Source: Faecalibacterium sp. An121 (GTDB taxonomy: Bacteria; Bacillota; Clostridia; Oscillospirales; Ruminococcaceae). From it: a DNA stretch of 64,000 nucleotides. Shown here in pieces: positions 3,644 through 61,821 of the stretch (position 1 is its first letter; every line of letters starts with the position of its first letter). The notes below the pieces were generated by a model, which saw only the letters and a list, made by a program, of their open reading frames with translations, was not told the origin of the DNA and made no database searches. Position numbers and translations under genes: made by a program. The stretch lies in assembly GCF_002160915.1 (NCBI RefSeq), contig NZ_NFLM01000004.1:1-64000 (forward strand), in the 5' to 3' direction.

Positions 3644-4442
3644 CTTCTTCCAATTGCGCGCCGGTGAGGTTGTACACCGCGTCGATGATGTAGTTGCGGT
3701 AGCTGGCGTTGCCGTCCAGCGGGGTCATGCGGCGGCGGGCCAGCTGGCCGCACAGCCCCATGGCACAGACAGCCGTCACGGCCCCGGCCAGGGGCTCCTG
3801 CGGGACCGCGGCCAGACAGGCCCCCATCATGGCGGACAGCTGGCATCCGGTACCGGTGACCCGGCTCATTTCGGGGCAGCCGTTGCGGATGCAGAAGGCC
3901 CGTCCGCCGTCGGTCACCACGTCAATGGCCCCGGTGATGGCGATGACCGCGCCGGTCTGCCGGGCAAAGGACTTGGCAAAGGCGACCGTCTGGTCCAGCG
4001 TCCCGGCGGTGATCCGGTCGGCAGGGGCGGCGTCCACCCCATGGGCGGCCCGGCCGCTGCCGGCCAGGGCGCGCATCTCGGACAGGTTGCCCCGGATGGC
4101 AGCCGGCTGCAGCTGCTCCAGCAGGGTACGGGCGCTTTCGGTGCGCAGCCGGGAGCTGCCTGCCCCCACCGGGTCCAGCACTACGGGAAGGCCCAGGGCG
4201 TTGGCTCTGGCCCCTGCGGCCAGCATGGCAGGCAGGACGCTTTGACGCAGAGTGCCGGTGTTCAGTACCAGAGCGCCGCACTGGGCGATGACCTCCTCCA
4301 CCTCACCGGGGTCCTCCGCCATGACGGGGCTGGCCCCGCAGGCCAGCAGGATGTTGGCGCAGTCGTTGGCTGTGACATAGTTGGTGATGCAGTGGACCAG
4401 AGGCGCCGCCGCACGCAGGCGGTCAAGCGTTTCCCGCAGCAT
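3621..4442 (-). CDS. thiM: Hydroxyethylthiazole kinase ThiM
   Basis: Salvage kinase that phosphorylates 4-methyl-5-hydroxyethylthiazole. Begins MLRETLDRLRAAAPLVHCITN, followed by YVTANDCANILLACGASPVMA, and carries the ribokinase-type VTGTGCQLSAMMGA near the C-terminus. 273 residues. A longer reading frame exists upstream but the ATG at 4442 has GGAGG just upstream, matches family length and overlaps thiW by 20 bp. With thiW it shows the operon favours salvage of thiazole; no thiG/thiS/thiF/thiH is seen here. Confidence 0.95.
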   Translation of the reverse strand: MLRETLDRLRAAAPLVHCITNYVTANDCANILLACGASPVMAEDPGEVEEVIAQCGALVLNTGTLRQSVLPAMLAAGARANALGLPVVLDPVGAGSSRLRTESARTLLEQLQPAAIRGNLSEMRALAGSGRAAHGVDAAPADRITAGTLDQTVAFAKSFARQTGAVIAITGAIDVVTDGGRAFCIRNGCPEMSRVTGTGCQLSAMMGACLAAVPQEPLAGAVTAVCAMGLCGQLARRRMTPLDGNASYRNYIIDAVYNLTGAQLEEGADYEVR

Positions 4443-55872: not shown

Positions 55873-55950
55873 TTGGCCGCAGCACAGGCCGCGGCGCAAA
55901 ATCCCGGGCGGATGGACAAAGAGAGGAGAGGCTTTTTTGCCTATGTATAT

Positions 55951-55978
55951 ATTTCGTATAATGCACGTTATACGAAAA
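55951..55978. other. dif/lox-like Xer recombination site
   Basis: Near-perfect dyad: left arm ATTTCGTATAA, 6-bp centre TGCACG, right arm TTATACGAAAA. The 11-6-11 layout and the inner TAA...TTAT match dif sites bound by Xer recombinases (E. coli dif: GGTGCGCATAA, TGTATA, TTATGTTAAAT). The inner arms TTCGTATA and TATACGAA with an 8-bp spacer are also identical to those of loxP. It lies in a gene-less gap (55873-56217) where gene direction flips. The rest of the gap holds only terminators and nothing coding that I can support. Confidence 0.7.
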
Positions 55979-56121
55979 ATAGGGAAGCGAAAAAGCCCTT
56001 TTCAGCCACTTTTGGGCCTTTTGGCCGGTTCCGGCGGTTTCCGGACCCGCTGGGCCTGGTTTTGGTACGGCTGCATGGATCTGCATTTTATGTTCCAAAT
56101 TTGCTTGTTTTTCGATCAACG

Positions 56122-56217: not shown

Positions 56218-56835
56218 TTAAGGATTCCTTGCAAAGTAGTCGCTGCAAAACCCGAACCATTGTTCTTGATAATCCTGATGCTGCAGCGGCAGAATGTCTT
56301 TGGGGCTCCAGACACCTCTGCGCTGGGCTTCCTTTGCAAAGTCCCAAATGTACGCGCCCGTCTTGCTTTCATAGACCTGTACCGTCTGCCAGCCCTGCAC
56401 CGCCGCTGCATACATCCGGCTGTGGCCGTCCAGCGACACCCAACGGCCGCTTTGGGGATCTCGAACCACCGGGACGATCACGTCATCACTATTTCGTATA
56501 AAATGTGAGACTGCCTCTACCTTGTCGATATCTACAAAGAATTGGGACGGCTGGATGCTCTGAAGGCTTGCACGTTGCAGCAGCACCGGCGGATATTCTG
56601 CGATGATCCGTCCATCTGCATTGTAAAACACGGTGATATGCTCCGCATAGTCGCGAAACACGTCAATGATTTCAGAAATATTCGTATCATCGTCAAAGAA
56701 CACAGACGCAGCGTTTGGACCGCAAATTTTGAAGGCACAAGGCATCGCACCATCGATCAAAAAGGCGCCGTGTTCCCATAAGACTTCCTGCGGAAAGCGG
56801 TTGTCCGTATAGTCATGGATGCGCTCGATCTGCAT
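56218..56835 (-). CDS. ParB-like hypothetical protein
   Basis: 205 residues. The C-terminal half has VSLDGHSRMYAAAVQGWQTV, like the ParB/Srx nuclease-like 'DGHHR...A' loop. The N-terminal half (about 20-95) is unrecognised. Start at 56835 has GGAAAGG upstream. Last gene of the accessory operon, 7 nt after the SRPBCC gene. Function unclear. Confidence 0.6.
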   Translation of the reverse strand: MQIERIHDYTDNRFPQEVLWEHGAFLIDGAMPCAFKICGPNAASVFFDDDTNISEIIDVFRDYAEHITVFYNADGRIIAEYPPVLLQRASLQSIQPSQFFVDIDKVEAVSHFIRNSDDVIVPVVRDPQSGRWVSLDGHSRMYAAAVQGWQTVQVYESKTGAYIWDFAKEAQRRGVWSPKDILPLQHQDYQEQWFGFCSDYFARNP

Positions 56836-56842
56836 ATTTGTG

Positions 56843-57241
56843 CTACCTTTCCAGCGCCTTGCGCAGGTCTGCCGCAAACTGCGTTTGGTGCCGTTTCAAA
56901 TACAGCTTGACAAAGGGCTTCATCCACAGCTTTTTTGCCGTGACCTGCTCGGTGAAGTCGATGACGGTACCAGCGCCGCGCTGCCGGAACACACCGGTCC
57001 AGTGGCCGGTCATGTGGCTGCTCTCCATATCAAATTCCCAGCGGGCATAGGGGTCTACCCTTGTGACTGTGAATTTTGTAACTGCACCGTCCCTGGCATA
57101 CTCCATAAACACAGTCCGATTCAGCACCTCTACCCGGTCCAGATCGCTGCGCCATTGGGGATACCGGCCCACATCGGTGACCAGATCCCAGACCTGGCGC
57201 AGATCCGCAGCCAGTGCGGTTTTCAGTTTGGAAGTTATCAT
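56843..57241 (-). CDS. SRPBCC family protein
   Basis: 132-residue START/Bet v1-like fold: MITSKLKTALAADLRQVWDL, VGRYPQWRSDLDRVEVLN, GTVIDFTEQV. Usually binds a hydrophobic ligand; no substrate is suggested. Start at 57241 with AAAGG upstream; the longer upstream frame has no support. An 80-nt gap separates it from the zinc-ribbon gene. Confidence 0.85.
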   Translation of the reverse strand: MITSKLKTALAADLRQVWDLVTDVGRYPQWRSDLDRVEVLNRTVFMEYARDGAVTKFTVTRVDPYARWEFDMESSHMTGHWTGVFRQRGAGTVIDFTEQVTAKKLWMKPFVKLYLKRHQTQFAADLRKALER

Positions 57242-59774: not shown

Positions 59775-60923
59775 TCAGCTTTCCGGGTCAAAATCCTCCG
59801 CCAGGGAGGGCAAAATGTCGGGCAGCGCTTCCCCGGCTGCGGCGCTCTCCCCTTCTTCGGCGGGGATATCCGGTTCTGCGGCCGGTGTGCTCGGCGAGCC
59901 GGCGCCGGGCCTGCCCTGGGCCGCCCCCAGCGGGTTCGCCTCGATGGCCGCCCGCACCTGGGCGTCCTGCAGATGGGTATAGATCTGGGTGGTGCCCACA
60001 TTGCTGTGCCCTAGCAGTTCCTTGAGGGTGAGAACATCTACGTTCCCGGTCTGATACATCAGGGTGGCGGCGGTGTGGCGCAGTTTATGGGTGGAAAACC
60101 CTTTCAGGCCGGCGGCCTTCATGGCGCCGGTGATGAGCTGCTCCACCCGCCGGTTGGAGATCCGGTCTTTGCGCCGTTTGGTGATAAAGACCGCCGGCTC
60201 TTTGGGAGACAGACCTTCGACGCAGCCCCGCTTTTGCAGGTAGAGGTCCAGCGCCTCCACACAGGCGTCGTTCAGATAGACCATCCGCTCTTTGTGGCCC
60301 TTGCCAAACAGCCGGATCTGCCGTCCGGCAAGGTCGACGTCCTCCATGTTCATGCCCACCAGCTCAGACAGGCGCATCCCGCAGTTCAAAAACAGCACGG
60401 CCATGCAGTAATCGCGCTCGGGAAAATCGCTGGAAGTCCGGGTGGCCTTCAGCAGGGCCCGGGCCTGGTCGGCGGTCAGATACTTGGGCAGGACCTTGTC
60501 CAGCTTGGGCGGGCTGACCGCCGCAGTTGGGTCCTGTTCCAGGCGGCTTGCGTGGTTGACCATGTAGTCGTAAAAGCCGTGAAGGCTGGCCAGCCGCCGG
60601 GCGGTGGAGGACTTTTTGTTGCCGCAGGTCTGGTTGAGGAAATACAGATACTCGTAGATATCCTCTTTGCTCACGCTGCCCCAAAAGGCGGTGTCCAGCC
60701 CTTTGGGGTCGATGTCCTTCATTTCGGCATCCTCCGGCACAAGGCCCCGGCGCTGCTTCATAAACCGGCTGAAATTGCGCAGGTCGCAGTAGTAGTTGAA
60801 AGCGGTGTTGGCGCTCTTGCCTGCGATCACTTCCAGATACCGCACATAGTCTACAATGTCCGGCGATGCATCCTGAAAGGGCTTGTGCCTGGATGGATTC
60901 TTTTCGTCCAGATAGATCGACAT
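59775..60923 (-). CDS. Xer-type tyrosine recombinase
   Basis: 382 residues. N-terminal SAM-like core-binding domain (about 15-130), catalytic domain with Arg184 (CGMRLSEL), Lys in GKGHKER, His279-x-x-Arg282 (HKLRH), His306 (LGHSNV) and nucleophile Tyr315 (QIYTHL). After it comes a ~55-residue Pro/Ala/Glu/Asp-rich tail absent from XerC/XerD. Start at 60923 has GGAAGGAG. It is 3.8 kb from the dif-like site at 55951, as in single-recombinase XerS/dif arrangements. Confidence 0.88.
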   Translation of the reverse strand: MSIYLDEKNPSRHKPFQDASPDIVDYVRYLEVIAGKSANTAFNYYCDLRNFSRFMKQRRGLVPEDAEMKDIDPKGLDTAFWGSVSKEDIYEYLYFLNQTCGNKKSSTARRLASLHGFYDYMVNHASRLEQDPTAAVSPPKLDKVLPKYLTADQARALLKATRTSSDFPERDYCMAVLFLNCGMRLSELVGMNMEDVDLAGRQIRLFGKGHKERMVYLNDACVEALDLYLQKRGCVEGLSPKEPAVFITKRRKDRISNRRVEQLITGAMKAAGLKGFSTHKLRHTAATLMYQTGNVDVLTLKELLGHSNVGTTQIYTHLQDAQVRAAIEANPLGAAQGRPGAGSPSTPAAEPDIPAEEGESAAAGEALPDILPSLAEDFDPES

Positions 60924-60939: not shown

Positions 60940-61821
60940 TTATGGGCGGCGGTCCGCGCGGATAAAGGGCGCATGGATCGCCGTATCGGTCAGCAGACCG
61001 TATTTTTCCGGCCGCCGGTAGGCGTTGCCGTGCACCTCGCTCTGACGGTAGCGGCGCAGCTGCTCCAGATCCAGGCTGGCCACAAAGATCCCTTCTTCCT
61101 CCCCTGCCTGCAAAATACAGGTATCGCGGGAGCCCTCTGTATCGGCGGTATAGGCCACCCCGTCAAACACGGTGGAGCCGCCGTTGCAGTCAGGCACGCC
61201 GGCGGGATAGTTGCAGGTGGCGATGGCCGCCATATTTTCAAAGGCCCTGGCTCGCAGCTGTGCCAGGCGGTTGATCTCCATCGGGCAGGCGTTGGGTACC
61301 AGGATCAGCTCGGCGCCCTGCAGCATCAGCAGCCTGGCGCTTTCGGGAAATTCCCTGTCGTAACAGATCATGGCCCCGACCTGCACCGGTCCGCAAGCCG
61401 TGTCAAGGACCGTCACTGCAAACCCTTCCCCGGCTGTCAGCGCGCGTTCCGGGCCGAAATCACAGGTGTGCACCTTGGCATAGAGCAGCCTGCGCCGGCC
61501 TTGCCGGTCAAAGAGAGCCAGACTGTTGCGCGGGCCGCCGGGATACGCCTCCAAAAAAGTGATCCCGATGGCCATATCCAGTTCGTTTGCCAGGGCGCCA
61601 AAAGCCTGTACAAAACGGCCATCCGCCGGGACGGCCTGCGCTGTCCATTGGCTGGCAGGCAGCCCGTCGATGCCATAGCCGTTGCTCCACATTTCCGGAA
61701 AGAGAGCGATGTCCGCTCCCTTTTCCCTGGCCTTCCGGCAGGCGTCCAGCCCTTTTTGCAGGTTTGCTTCCTGTGTCCCGCCGGGCGCGATCTGCAGCAG
61801 GGCGATCTTCAGATGATCCAT
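60940..61821 (-). CDS. Nitrilase-family carbon-nitrogen hydrolase
   Basis: 293 residues, Glu in FPEMWSNGY, Lys in YAKVHTCDF, Cys in AMICYDREFPESAR. Omega-amidase or carbamoylase group; the substrate is not clear. 18 nt after the hydrolase gene and 16 nt before the recombinase. Confidence 0.88.
   Translation of the reverse strand: MDHLKIALLQIAPGGTQEANLQKGLDACRKAREKGADIALFPEMWSNGYGIDGLPASQWTAQAVPADGRFVQAFGALANELDMAIGITFLEAYPGGPRNSLALFDRQGRRRLLYAKVHTCDFGPERALTAGEGFAVTVLDTACGPVQVGAMICYDREFPESARLLMLQGAELILVPNACPMEINRLAQLRARAFENMAAIATCNYPAGVPDCNGGSTVFDGVAYTADTEGSRDTCILQAGEEEGIFVASLDLEQLRRYRQSEVHGNAYRRPEKYGLLTDTAIHAPFIRADRRP

Follow-up and report, generated by a model that had tools for sequence, protein, structure and literature searches.

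A probable single-recombinase Xer system with a palindromic dif site at the replichore boundary of Faecalibacterium, with counterparts in other Oscillospirales

The 64,000-nucleotide stretch of the Faecalibacterium sp. An121 genome analysed here, referred to as the window, carries the gene of a tyrosine recombinase close to a dif-like palindrome, and this locus raises the question of whether one Xer protein acts on both halves of the site. An initial annotation of the DNA had proposed such a single-Xer arrangement. Our analysis supported the proposal, and the sequence evidence makes it very probable that the window xer is the only Xer of the chromosome and that chromosome dimers are resolved by a single-recombinase dif/Xer system composed of its product and the palindrome at 55950-55979. 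This reading was drawn from the single conserved Xer, the position of dif at the replichore switch, the linkage of gene and site, the covarying arms and the presence of an FtsK gamma domain.

The gene xer (59775-60923, minus strand), identified by translation of the reading frame, profile matches, alignment and tree, encoded a protein of 382 residues followed by a stop codon. The start at 60923 was favored over a longer one at the ATG at 60974, as the N-terminal sequence MSIYL(D/N)E(K/R)NP was common to the crown Faecalibacterium relatives. The named relatives of the protein, showing 73-85% identity, were from Faecalibacterium. Pfam search detected the catalytic Phage_integrase domain (1.2e-38) along with a SAM-like N-domain (3.6e-8), and R184, K211, H279, R282, H306 and Y315 were assigned as the predicted catalytic set by alignment to XerD, in keeping with the known biochemistry of tyrosine recombinases. 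These six residues, which the initial annotation had already regarded as complete, were unvarying in the alignment of 46 sequences, and with the two domains they placed the protein among the Xer tyrosine recombinases in the broad sense. The AlphaFold model was only of moderate confidence (mean pLDDT 76.3, pTM 0.59). VIA-align of this model gave XerA (4a8e; Z 21.0, rmsd 9.3, 261 aligned) as the top structural match, along with XerH (5jk0_D; Z 18.0, rmsd 6.3, 268 aligned) and XerD (1a0p; Z 16.1, rmsd 11.2, 232 aligned). These matches, together with those to integrases and Cre, confirmed the predicted fold, not the subfamily. Residues 86-333 also matched chain 14 of PDB entry 9i5v (87 bits), which is labelled as the ribosome-associated inhibitor RaiA; as the chain matches a Xer, its label or sequence looks wrong.

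The recombinases were then counted by profile search. The genome containing the window (2.71 Mb, 62 contigs, 99.3% complete) possessed 13 stretches matching PF00589, distributed over ten reading frames including the window xer. The NCBIfam XerC model was the best one for the window Xer with 211 bits against a cut-off of 335.15, and the scores with the models for XerD (200.9 bits, cut-off 329.6), XerA (182.7 bits, cut-off 220) and XerS (NF003462; 130.7 bits, cut-off 267) were likewise below the respective thresholds. Among the 61 genomes searched, 31 of Faecalibacterium and 30 others, none had a protein above the XerC cut-off, and four, all outside Faecalibacterium, had one above the XerD cut-off; in the 31 Faecalibacterium genomes neither model was thus exceeded. 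Seven further non-Faecalibacterium genomes reached 295-327 bits with the XerD model, under the cut-off, and XerD-like proteins were counted in 11 of the 30 non-Faecalibacterium genomes of the relatives set. Both cut-offs are strict, being passed in only 2 (XerC) and 4 (XerD) of 14 control genomes, and the gap in scores was therefore the better sign: among the genus matches listed, the orthologs of the window Xer scored approximately 170-218 bits, and the accessory recombinases did not exceed 165 bits with the XerD model and 169 bits with the XerC model. The ortholog was present in 28 of the 31 Faecalibacterium genomes; G002, G011 and G017, which lacked it, were 77-84% complete, and G018 contained a fragment.

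In a tree of 61 sequences, constructed without XerS and XerH reference proteins, the window Xer was located inside a clade of 42 Oscillospirales orthologs with 100/100 support. The clade was separate from E. coli XerC and XerD, from the XerD-like Oscillospirales proteins, and from those other recombinases of the window genome that were included in the tree (seven out of nine). A recombinase of 329 aa encoded on contig C9 branched beside the Xer group and scored 154.6 bits with the XerD model. Placements of the integrases were unsure owing to long branches; the window Xer did not group with them, and its distribution was not sporadic. An FtsK gamma domain was detected in the window genome (G000:C3:54693-54875, 100.4 bits). 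The initial annotation had suggested a phylogeny, a count of Xer genes and a search for FtsK gamma-domain features, and had named canonical xerC and xerD elsewhere in the genome, or a grouping with element integrases, as findings that would speak against a single Xer. The three analyses agreed with its proposal, as the protein stood apart from XerC, XerD and the integrases of its genome, no Faecalibacterium XerC or XerD exceeded the strict cut-offs, and the gamma domain was present. In two other families, a XerD-like gene faced the ortholog of the window Xer tail to tail at a distance of about 70 bp (G044 C1:1545354-1547240 and G059 C11:56272-58154), hinting at a two-gene variant.

The dif site, identified by pattern scans and alignment, was a 12-6-12 palindrome, TATTTCGTATAA-TGCACG-TTATACGAAAAA, at 55950-55979 on the plus strand, containing the 26-bp core TTTCGTATAA-TGCACG-TTATACGAAA at 55952-55977 (plus strand). 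The 26-mer genus pattern TTTCGTATAATGNNNNTTATACGAAA, searched with up to three mismatches, occurred at one place in the 2.71-Mb genome, in 28 of the 31 Faecalibacterium genomes and in none of the 30 others, and the reversed pattern used as a control matched once each in 1/31 and 7/30. A diverged perfect palindrome upstream of xer in G027, read by eye, raised the total to 29 of 31; the pattern scan did not find dif in G011 and G017. The site was usually single, more than one match being detected only in G008 (on two contigs) and G005 (the second with three mismatches). In seven of the eight one-contig Faecalibacterium genomes (G030 was left out), dif was located at 0.487-0.536 of the circle from dnaA. 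The cumulative purine skew calculated over the window reached its maximum at position 55995, 30 bp from the dif centre, and the corresponding distance was 33 bp or less in all seven stretches examined (the window and six relatives, 80-200 kb each). With the GC-only skew, the maximum coincided less closely with dif, the distance varying between 30 and 3194 bp over the same seven stretches. We read the site as marking the replichore boundary, and it behaves as a real dif in being a single-copy site at the replichore switch, opposite to the origin. The coincidence of dif with the purine-skew maximum also provides a simple terminus locator for draft Faecalibacterium genomes. The half-site TTTCGTATAA occurred a third time, as an exact copy, at 56492-56501 of the window, 540 bp from dif and within the reading frame 56218-56877 (minus strand).

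The gap between dif and xer in the window was 3801 bp, agreeing with the 3.8 kb given previously, and was the largest in the genus. The gaps ranged from 24 to 3801 bp in 26 Faecalibacterium genomes and the gap was about 140 bp in G027; gene and site were neighbors in all 27 genomes that had both on one contig, and lay on separate contigs in G013. In the basal species (G009, G018, G019 and G027) dif was upstream of xer, and in the remaining Faecalibacterium it was downstream, at 0.5-3.8 kb in the crown group. Six frames taken between dif and xer in the window, encoding one YhfC-type protease, one acetyltransferase and four proteins with no Pfam match, look like local cargo, since close relatives had varying sets.

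Palindromes with the same 12-6-12 arrangement, such as AATTATACAAAA-TGAATA-TTTTGTATAATT, were found upstream of the orthologs in other families. An order-wide pattern built from these upstream palindromes and searched with up to two mismatches matched 64 of 117 Oscillospirales genomes and left 53 unmatched; the reversed control matched none of the 117. Four of the 64 matches (G038, G067, G093 and G124) look spurious. The ortholog of the window Xer was present in 105 of the 117 genomes, with one match each at E 1e-40. Among the 62 genomes with both, the site was within 1.2 kb of xer in 38, always upstream of the gene. Linkage was not universal in the order, as the distance was 5.6-6.5 kb in two genomes and 20-38 kb on the same contig in five, and gene and site lay on different contigs in 17. 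In G034, about 3 kb separated the skew maximum from the site, and 1.9 kb separated it from the xer end. In G044, the distance from dif to the skew maximum was 3.8 kb and that to xer 6.5 kb, a looser placement than in Faecalibacterium. In G052, the maximum found in the 180 kb examined and xer were approximately 69 kb apart. Eight gut Clostridia sequences (L066, L068, L071, L073, L077, L083, L085 and L086) shared a conserved, poorly symmetric element near AARTTTACATTTTATCCACTAAAT, 41-76 bp upstream of xer, which is possibly a diverged dif.

Equal arms that covary are the prediction for one recombinase binding both halves of the site. In 27 aligned sites including those of Faecalibacterium, 93.2% of the dyad cells were paired and 55 cells were changed on both sides, compared to 75.4% and 20.1 in shuffled controls and to 30.6-46.0% and 2-8 with slid partners. 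As some of the aligned rows had been picked for palindromy, the two free positions per arm offered a fairer test. These were complementary across the dyad in 56 of the 64 sites, when about four were expected at random; 30 of the 56 were AT/AT in related genomes and the other 26 comprised nine other pairings. A strict correlation between the palindromic site and the absence of XerD was rejected, as four of the 11 genomes with a XerD-like protein (G043, G053, G054 and G059) likewise possessed a palindromic dif no more than 1 kb from xer, and a second Xer may thus take part outside Faecalibacterium. No convincing linked site was found in seven genomes lacking XerD (G032, G039, G041, G048, G052, G056 and G058); the upstream region of G041 ends at the contig end, and G039, G048 and G056 matched the pattern on another contig.

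The arms being equal, direction would have to be supplied from elsewhere, and a candidate was found immediately beside the site. A polar G-box, AGGGAAG (55981-55987, plus strand), was located 1 bp outside the right arm of the window dif and reads AGGGRAG in the genus, where the right flank of dif as a whole reads ATAGGGRAGTGAAAAA. In the 27 rows of the genus flank alignment, of which G019 and G009 were oriented the opposite way, the A of GRAG was invariant and the fixed G columns were each kept in 25 of 27. The order consensus of columns 2-8 outside the right arm, obtained from the 49 of the 64 sites with flanks, was A-G-G-G-G-A-G by majority. The box was detected on the right side in 38 of these 49 sites and on the left side in none.

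The heptamer AGGGGAG was the most replichore-polar one in 560 kb of G022, with 51 copies toward dif and 4 away, and this polarity did not depend on the strand of the genes (24 sense, 21 antisense). G034 contained 62 copies toward and 17 away in 180 kb, where the heptamer ranked fourth by z and 143rd by ratio. AGGGGAG was discarded as one polar heptamer for all genomes, as 80 kb of G044 contained 3 copies in each direction, and AGGGAAG was the polar form there (10 toward, 1 away); the heptamer thus differs between genomes. The G-box as a translocase motif would fit Faecalibacterium and, in part, G034, and does not agree with G044. The motif GAGAAGGG of B. subtilis SpoIIIE was rejected as a polar motif in its turn, showing 22 copies toward and 0 away around dif but 8 in each direction in the rest of G022 sampled. 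AAGGGGAG was found 20 times toward dif and never away in the 560 kb of G022, and 76 times toward and 24 away in G012 among 100 of 106 places listed, and is a candidate for the motif read by FtsK in Faecalibacterium. As the AGGGGAG box of the order is the same heptamer as the most replichore-polar one of G022, dif may carry its own docking site for the translocase. The copy forming the box at dif is oriented away from the site, contrary to most of the chromosomal copies, and a loading model needs to explain this orientation. The fuller proposal, in which the Oscillospirales Xer/dif is homotypic, with a symmetric site, the AGGGGAG box as built-in FtsK docking, and FtsK-gamma rather than a second recombinase breaking the symmetry, is offered only tentatively, and we regard it as doubtful.

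Two alternative identities of the enzyme were weighed against the single-recombinase reading. The window Xer may be a divergent XerC-like half of a two-recombinase system, with a partner such as the 329-aa C9 protein. The XerC model as its best match, the ten recombinase frames of the genome, the branching of the C9 protein beside the Xer group and the occurrence of XerD-like proteins in 11 of the 30 non-Faecalibacterium genomes are in line with this. The two arms of the classical dif, bound by XerC and XerD, differ, however, while those found here are the same and covary; moreover, the C9 protein reached only 154.6 bits for XerD, and XerD matches of 140-165 bits occurred in just part of the genus, among the matches listed, as opposed to the 28 of 31 genomes with the window-Xer ortholog. 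A two-recombinase system with such a partner is consequently judged improbable. The other identity, an integrase of a mobile element settled at the terminus with the palindrome as its attachment site, draws on the variable genes between dif and xer in the window clade and on the fact that tyrosine recombinases often adjoin their att site. It is hardly reconcilable with an ortholog occurring once each in 105 of 117 genomes, with a clade apart from the integrases of the window genome, with a site at the skew switch in seven of seven stretches, and with the three strong DNA matches in phage collections being Faecalibacterium chromosome carrying xer, and we hold it to be very improbable.

For the G-box, the competing explanation is that of a mere ribosome-binding site of xer, left from an ancestral dif-xer order and playing no role in recombination. 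A start codon was indeed at a workable distance in G114, G068, G043 and G033, and the box was retained by nearly all sites lying up to 1.2 kb from xer (31 of 32), compared with 7 of 17 farther sites. Nevertheless, dif was inverted relative to xer in 7 of 28 linked genomes, and all seven retained the box on the far side, facing away from the gene, which argues that the box belongs to dif and is not merely part of the xer leader. AGGGRAG was also kept in crown Faecalibacterium, where dif is downstream of xer, and the box mostly begins 1 bp past the arm, when the nearest in-frame start codon was 12 to more than 1000 nt away. A ribosome-binding origin of the box is thus considered unlikely.

Returning to the single-recombinase reading, several known systems resemble the one proposed here. 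The initial annotation had likened it to XerS of streptococci, and the likeness held for the single Xer and the linked dif; the protein itself is not a XerS (130.7 against 267 bits), and the centre of its site is 6 bp, not 11. XerS/difSL of streptococci and lactococci shares the presence of FtsK, and has one Xer with dif beside the gene according to PMC5357621, which describes difSL as a 31-bp site whose unequal arms flank an 11-bp centre, in contrast to the 12-6-12 site with equal arms in Faecalibacterium. A separate G-box further distinguishes the Faecalibacterium/Oscillospirales dif from difSL. XerH/difH of Helicobacter and Campylobacter likewise has one Xer and a nearby site (PMC5357621), and XerH has the same fold as the window Xer (Z 18.0), but it was a weak phmmer match with 43.1 bits, compared to 106.3 for XerD. 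XerL/dif of Legionellales combines one Xer with inverted-repeat arms that measure 10 and 12 bp and are uninterrupted, according to PMC9765430, which attributes only partial symmetry to dif sites other than those of Legionellales. The same article places dif and xerL of L. pneumophila more than 400 kb apart, unlike the neighboring xer and dif of the window type, and contains no mention, in the sections consulted, of a G-box such as that at the Oscillospirales dif. XerC/XerD-dif agrees in fold, catalytic residues, a site at the terminus and FtsK-gamma, and differs in having two proteins, for both of which the window Xer was below the cut-off. The RQ-QQ residues of XerD contacting FtsK, as named in PMC5357621, were missing from the window Xer (VRAAIEANPL, compared to LRQLHQQHHP). 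Archaeal XerA is also a single Xer and the top structural match, differing from the window Xer by the 182.7 bits against a cut-off of 220; its system is described as FtsK-independent (PMC5357621). XerS, XerH and XerA have been placed in one Xer subgroup (PMC8138268). With a B. subtilis site as the seed, dif was predicted for 97 of 100 Firmicutes (PMC3025954), and a word search of the main text of that paper did not find Faecalibacterium, Ruminococc, Oscillibacter or Ethanoligenens. In the open-licence literature, no article dealing with dif or dimer resolution came to light for Faecalibacterium or Oscillospirales; for the ruminococci, a single article turned up, which by its title concerns Lactobacillus amylovorus. 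The Oscillospirales, including a major genus of human commensals, would join the streptococci and lactococci, epsilon-proteobacteria, archaea and Legionellales as single-recombinase groups, and their system would unite the gene linkage of XerS and XerH with the uninterrupted symmetric arms of XerL, plus a one-sided box.

By analogy with the biochemistry of tyrosine recombinases, two copies of the same Xer would bind both 12-bp arms, and two such dimers would then synapse. Cleavage by Y315 at either border of the 6-bp spacer would proceed in two rounds. As the septum closes, FtsK is expected to bring the two copies of dif together and to activate the reaction. The one-sided G-box would give the direction; in the simplest case, it would be contacted by FtsK-gamma or by an accessory portion of the recombinase. 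Such an ordered, FtsK-controlled reaction of one protein on a symmetric site can be tested with a 40-bp DNA and a single enzyme.

The window Xer also carries a C-terminal tail rich in Pro, Glu and Asp (residues 333-382; 59778-59927, minus strand), which ends in GEALPDILPSL... and was found in crown Faecalibacterium only. The 50 residues following the conserved NPL end included 8 P, 7 E and 4 D along with one basic residue; the composition and acidity noted initially were thus correct, and the length of about 55 was close. The initial annotation had found such a tail unusual because the C-terminus of XerC/D mediates contacts with the partner and FtsK. The tail is real, but it is appended after that C-terminus and is not an altered form of it. 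Orthologs outside the crown stop approximately 4-35 residues past the (N/S)PL motif. The tails of 24 distinct crown proteins were 35-93 residues long, with 8-22 D/E compared to 1-10 K/R and acidic residues always in excess. Two types of terminal motif were observed, the GEALPDILPSL type and the GPMEAFEGAAQDGFRVDV type: 8 of the 24 ended in GE(A/P)LP(E/D)ILP and 15 in the GPMEAFEGAAQDGFRVD type, and L117 had a close variant of the latter. Modelling of the tail, as had been proposed, gave a disordered segment, with AlphaFold pLDDT below 50 for residues 337-382. The combination of a variable acidic stretch and a conserved terminus suggests a binding motif tethered on a flexible linker, and in crown species the tail would hold a short motif for a partner. 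As the basal Faecalibacterium and other genera have no such tail, it appears dispensable for the basic reaction.

The possibility of a mobile element using dif was rejected, as the palindromes on viral contigs came without the ortholog, the phage hits were chromosomal and plasmids had no match. A loose scan detected the palindrome on seven viral contigs, none of which had an ortholog of the window Xer, and no plasmid matched at E 1 in this check. Contig L256 encoded a distant recombinase with 28% identity. Three unverified bacteriophage scaffolds from human faeces (MT835955, MT838422 and MT839766; L263-L265) were 97-99% identical to Faecalibacterium chromosome and carried xer and dif; they look bacterial, and thus provide no evidence of phages at dif. 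MT837796 carried a xer with 80.6% identity to the window Xer. Some microviruses integrate at dif, and a Microviridae genome from yak faeces (L266, MG945311.1) contained a dif-like stretch at 3720-3758 between annotated genes (E 0.04), which possibly serves for attachment in a host from the Oscillospirales. From a single IMG/VR sample, three contigs (L257 at 1691, L259 at 822 and L262 at 1217) had TTTCGTATAATAGGTATTATGCGAAA in common, without xer, and the centre of this sequence resembles the dif of G009.
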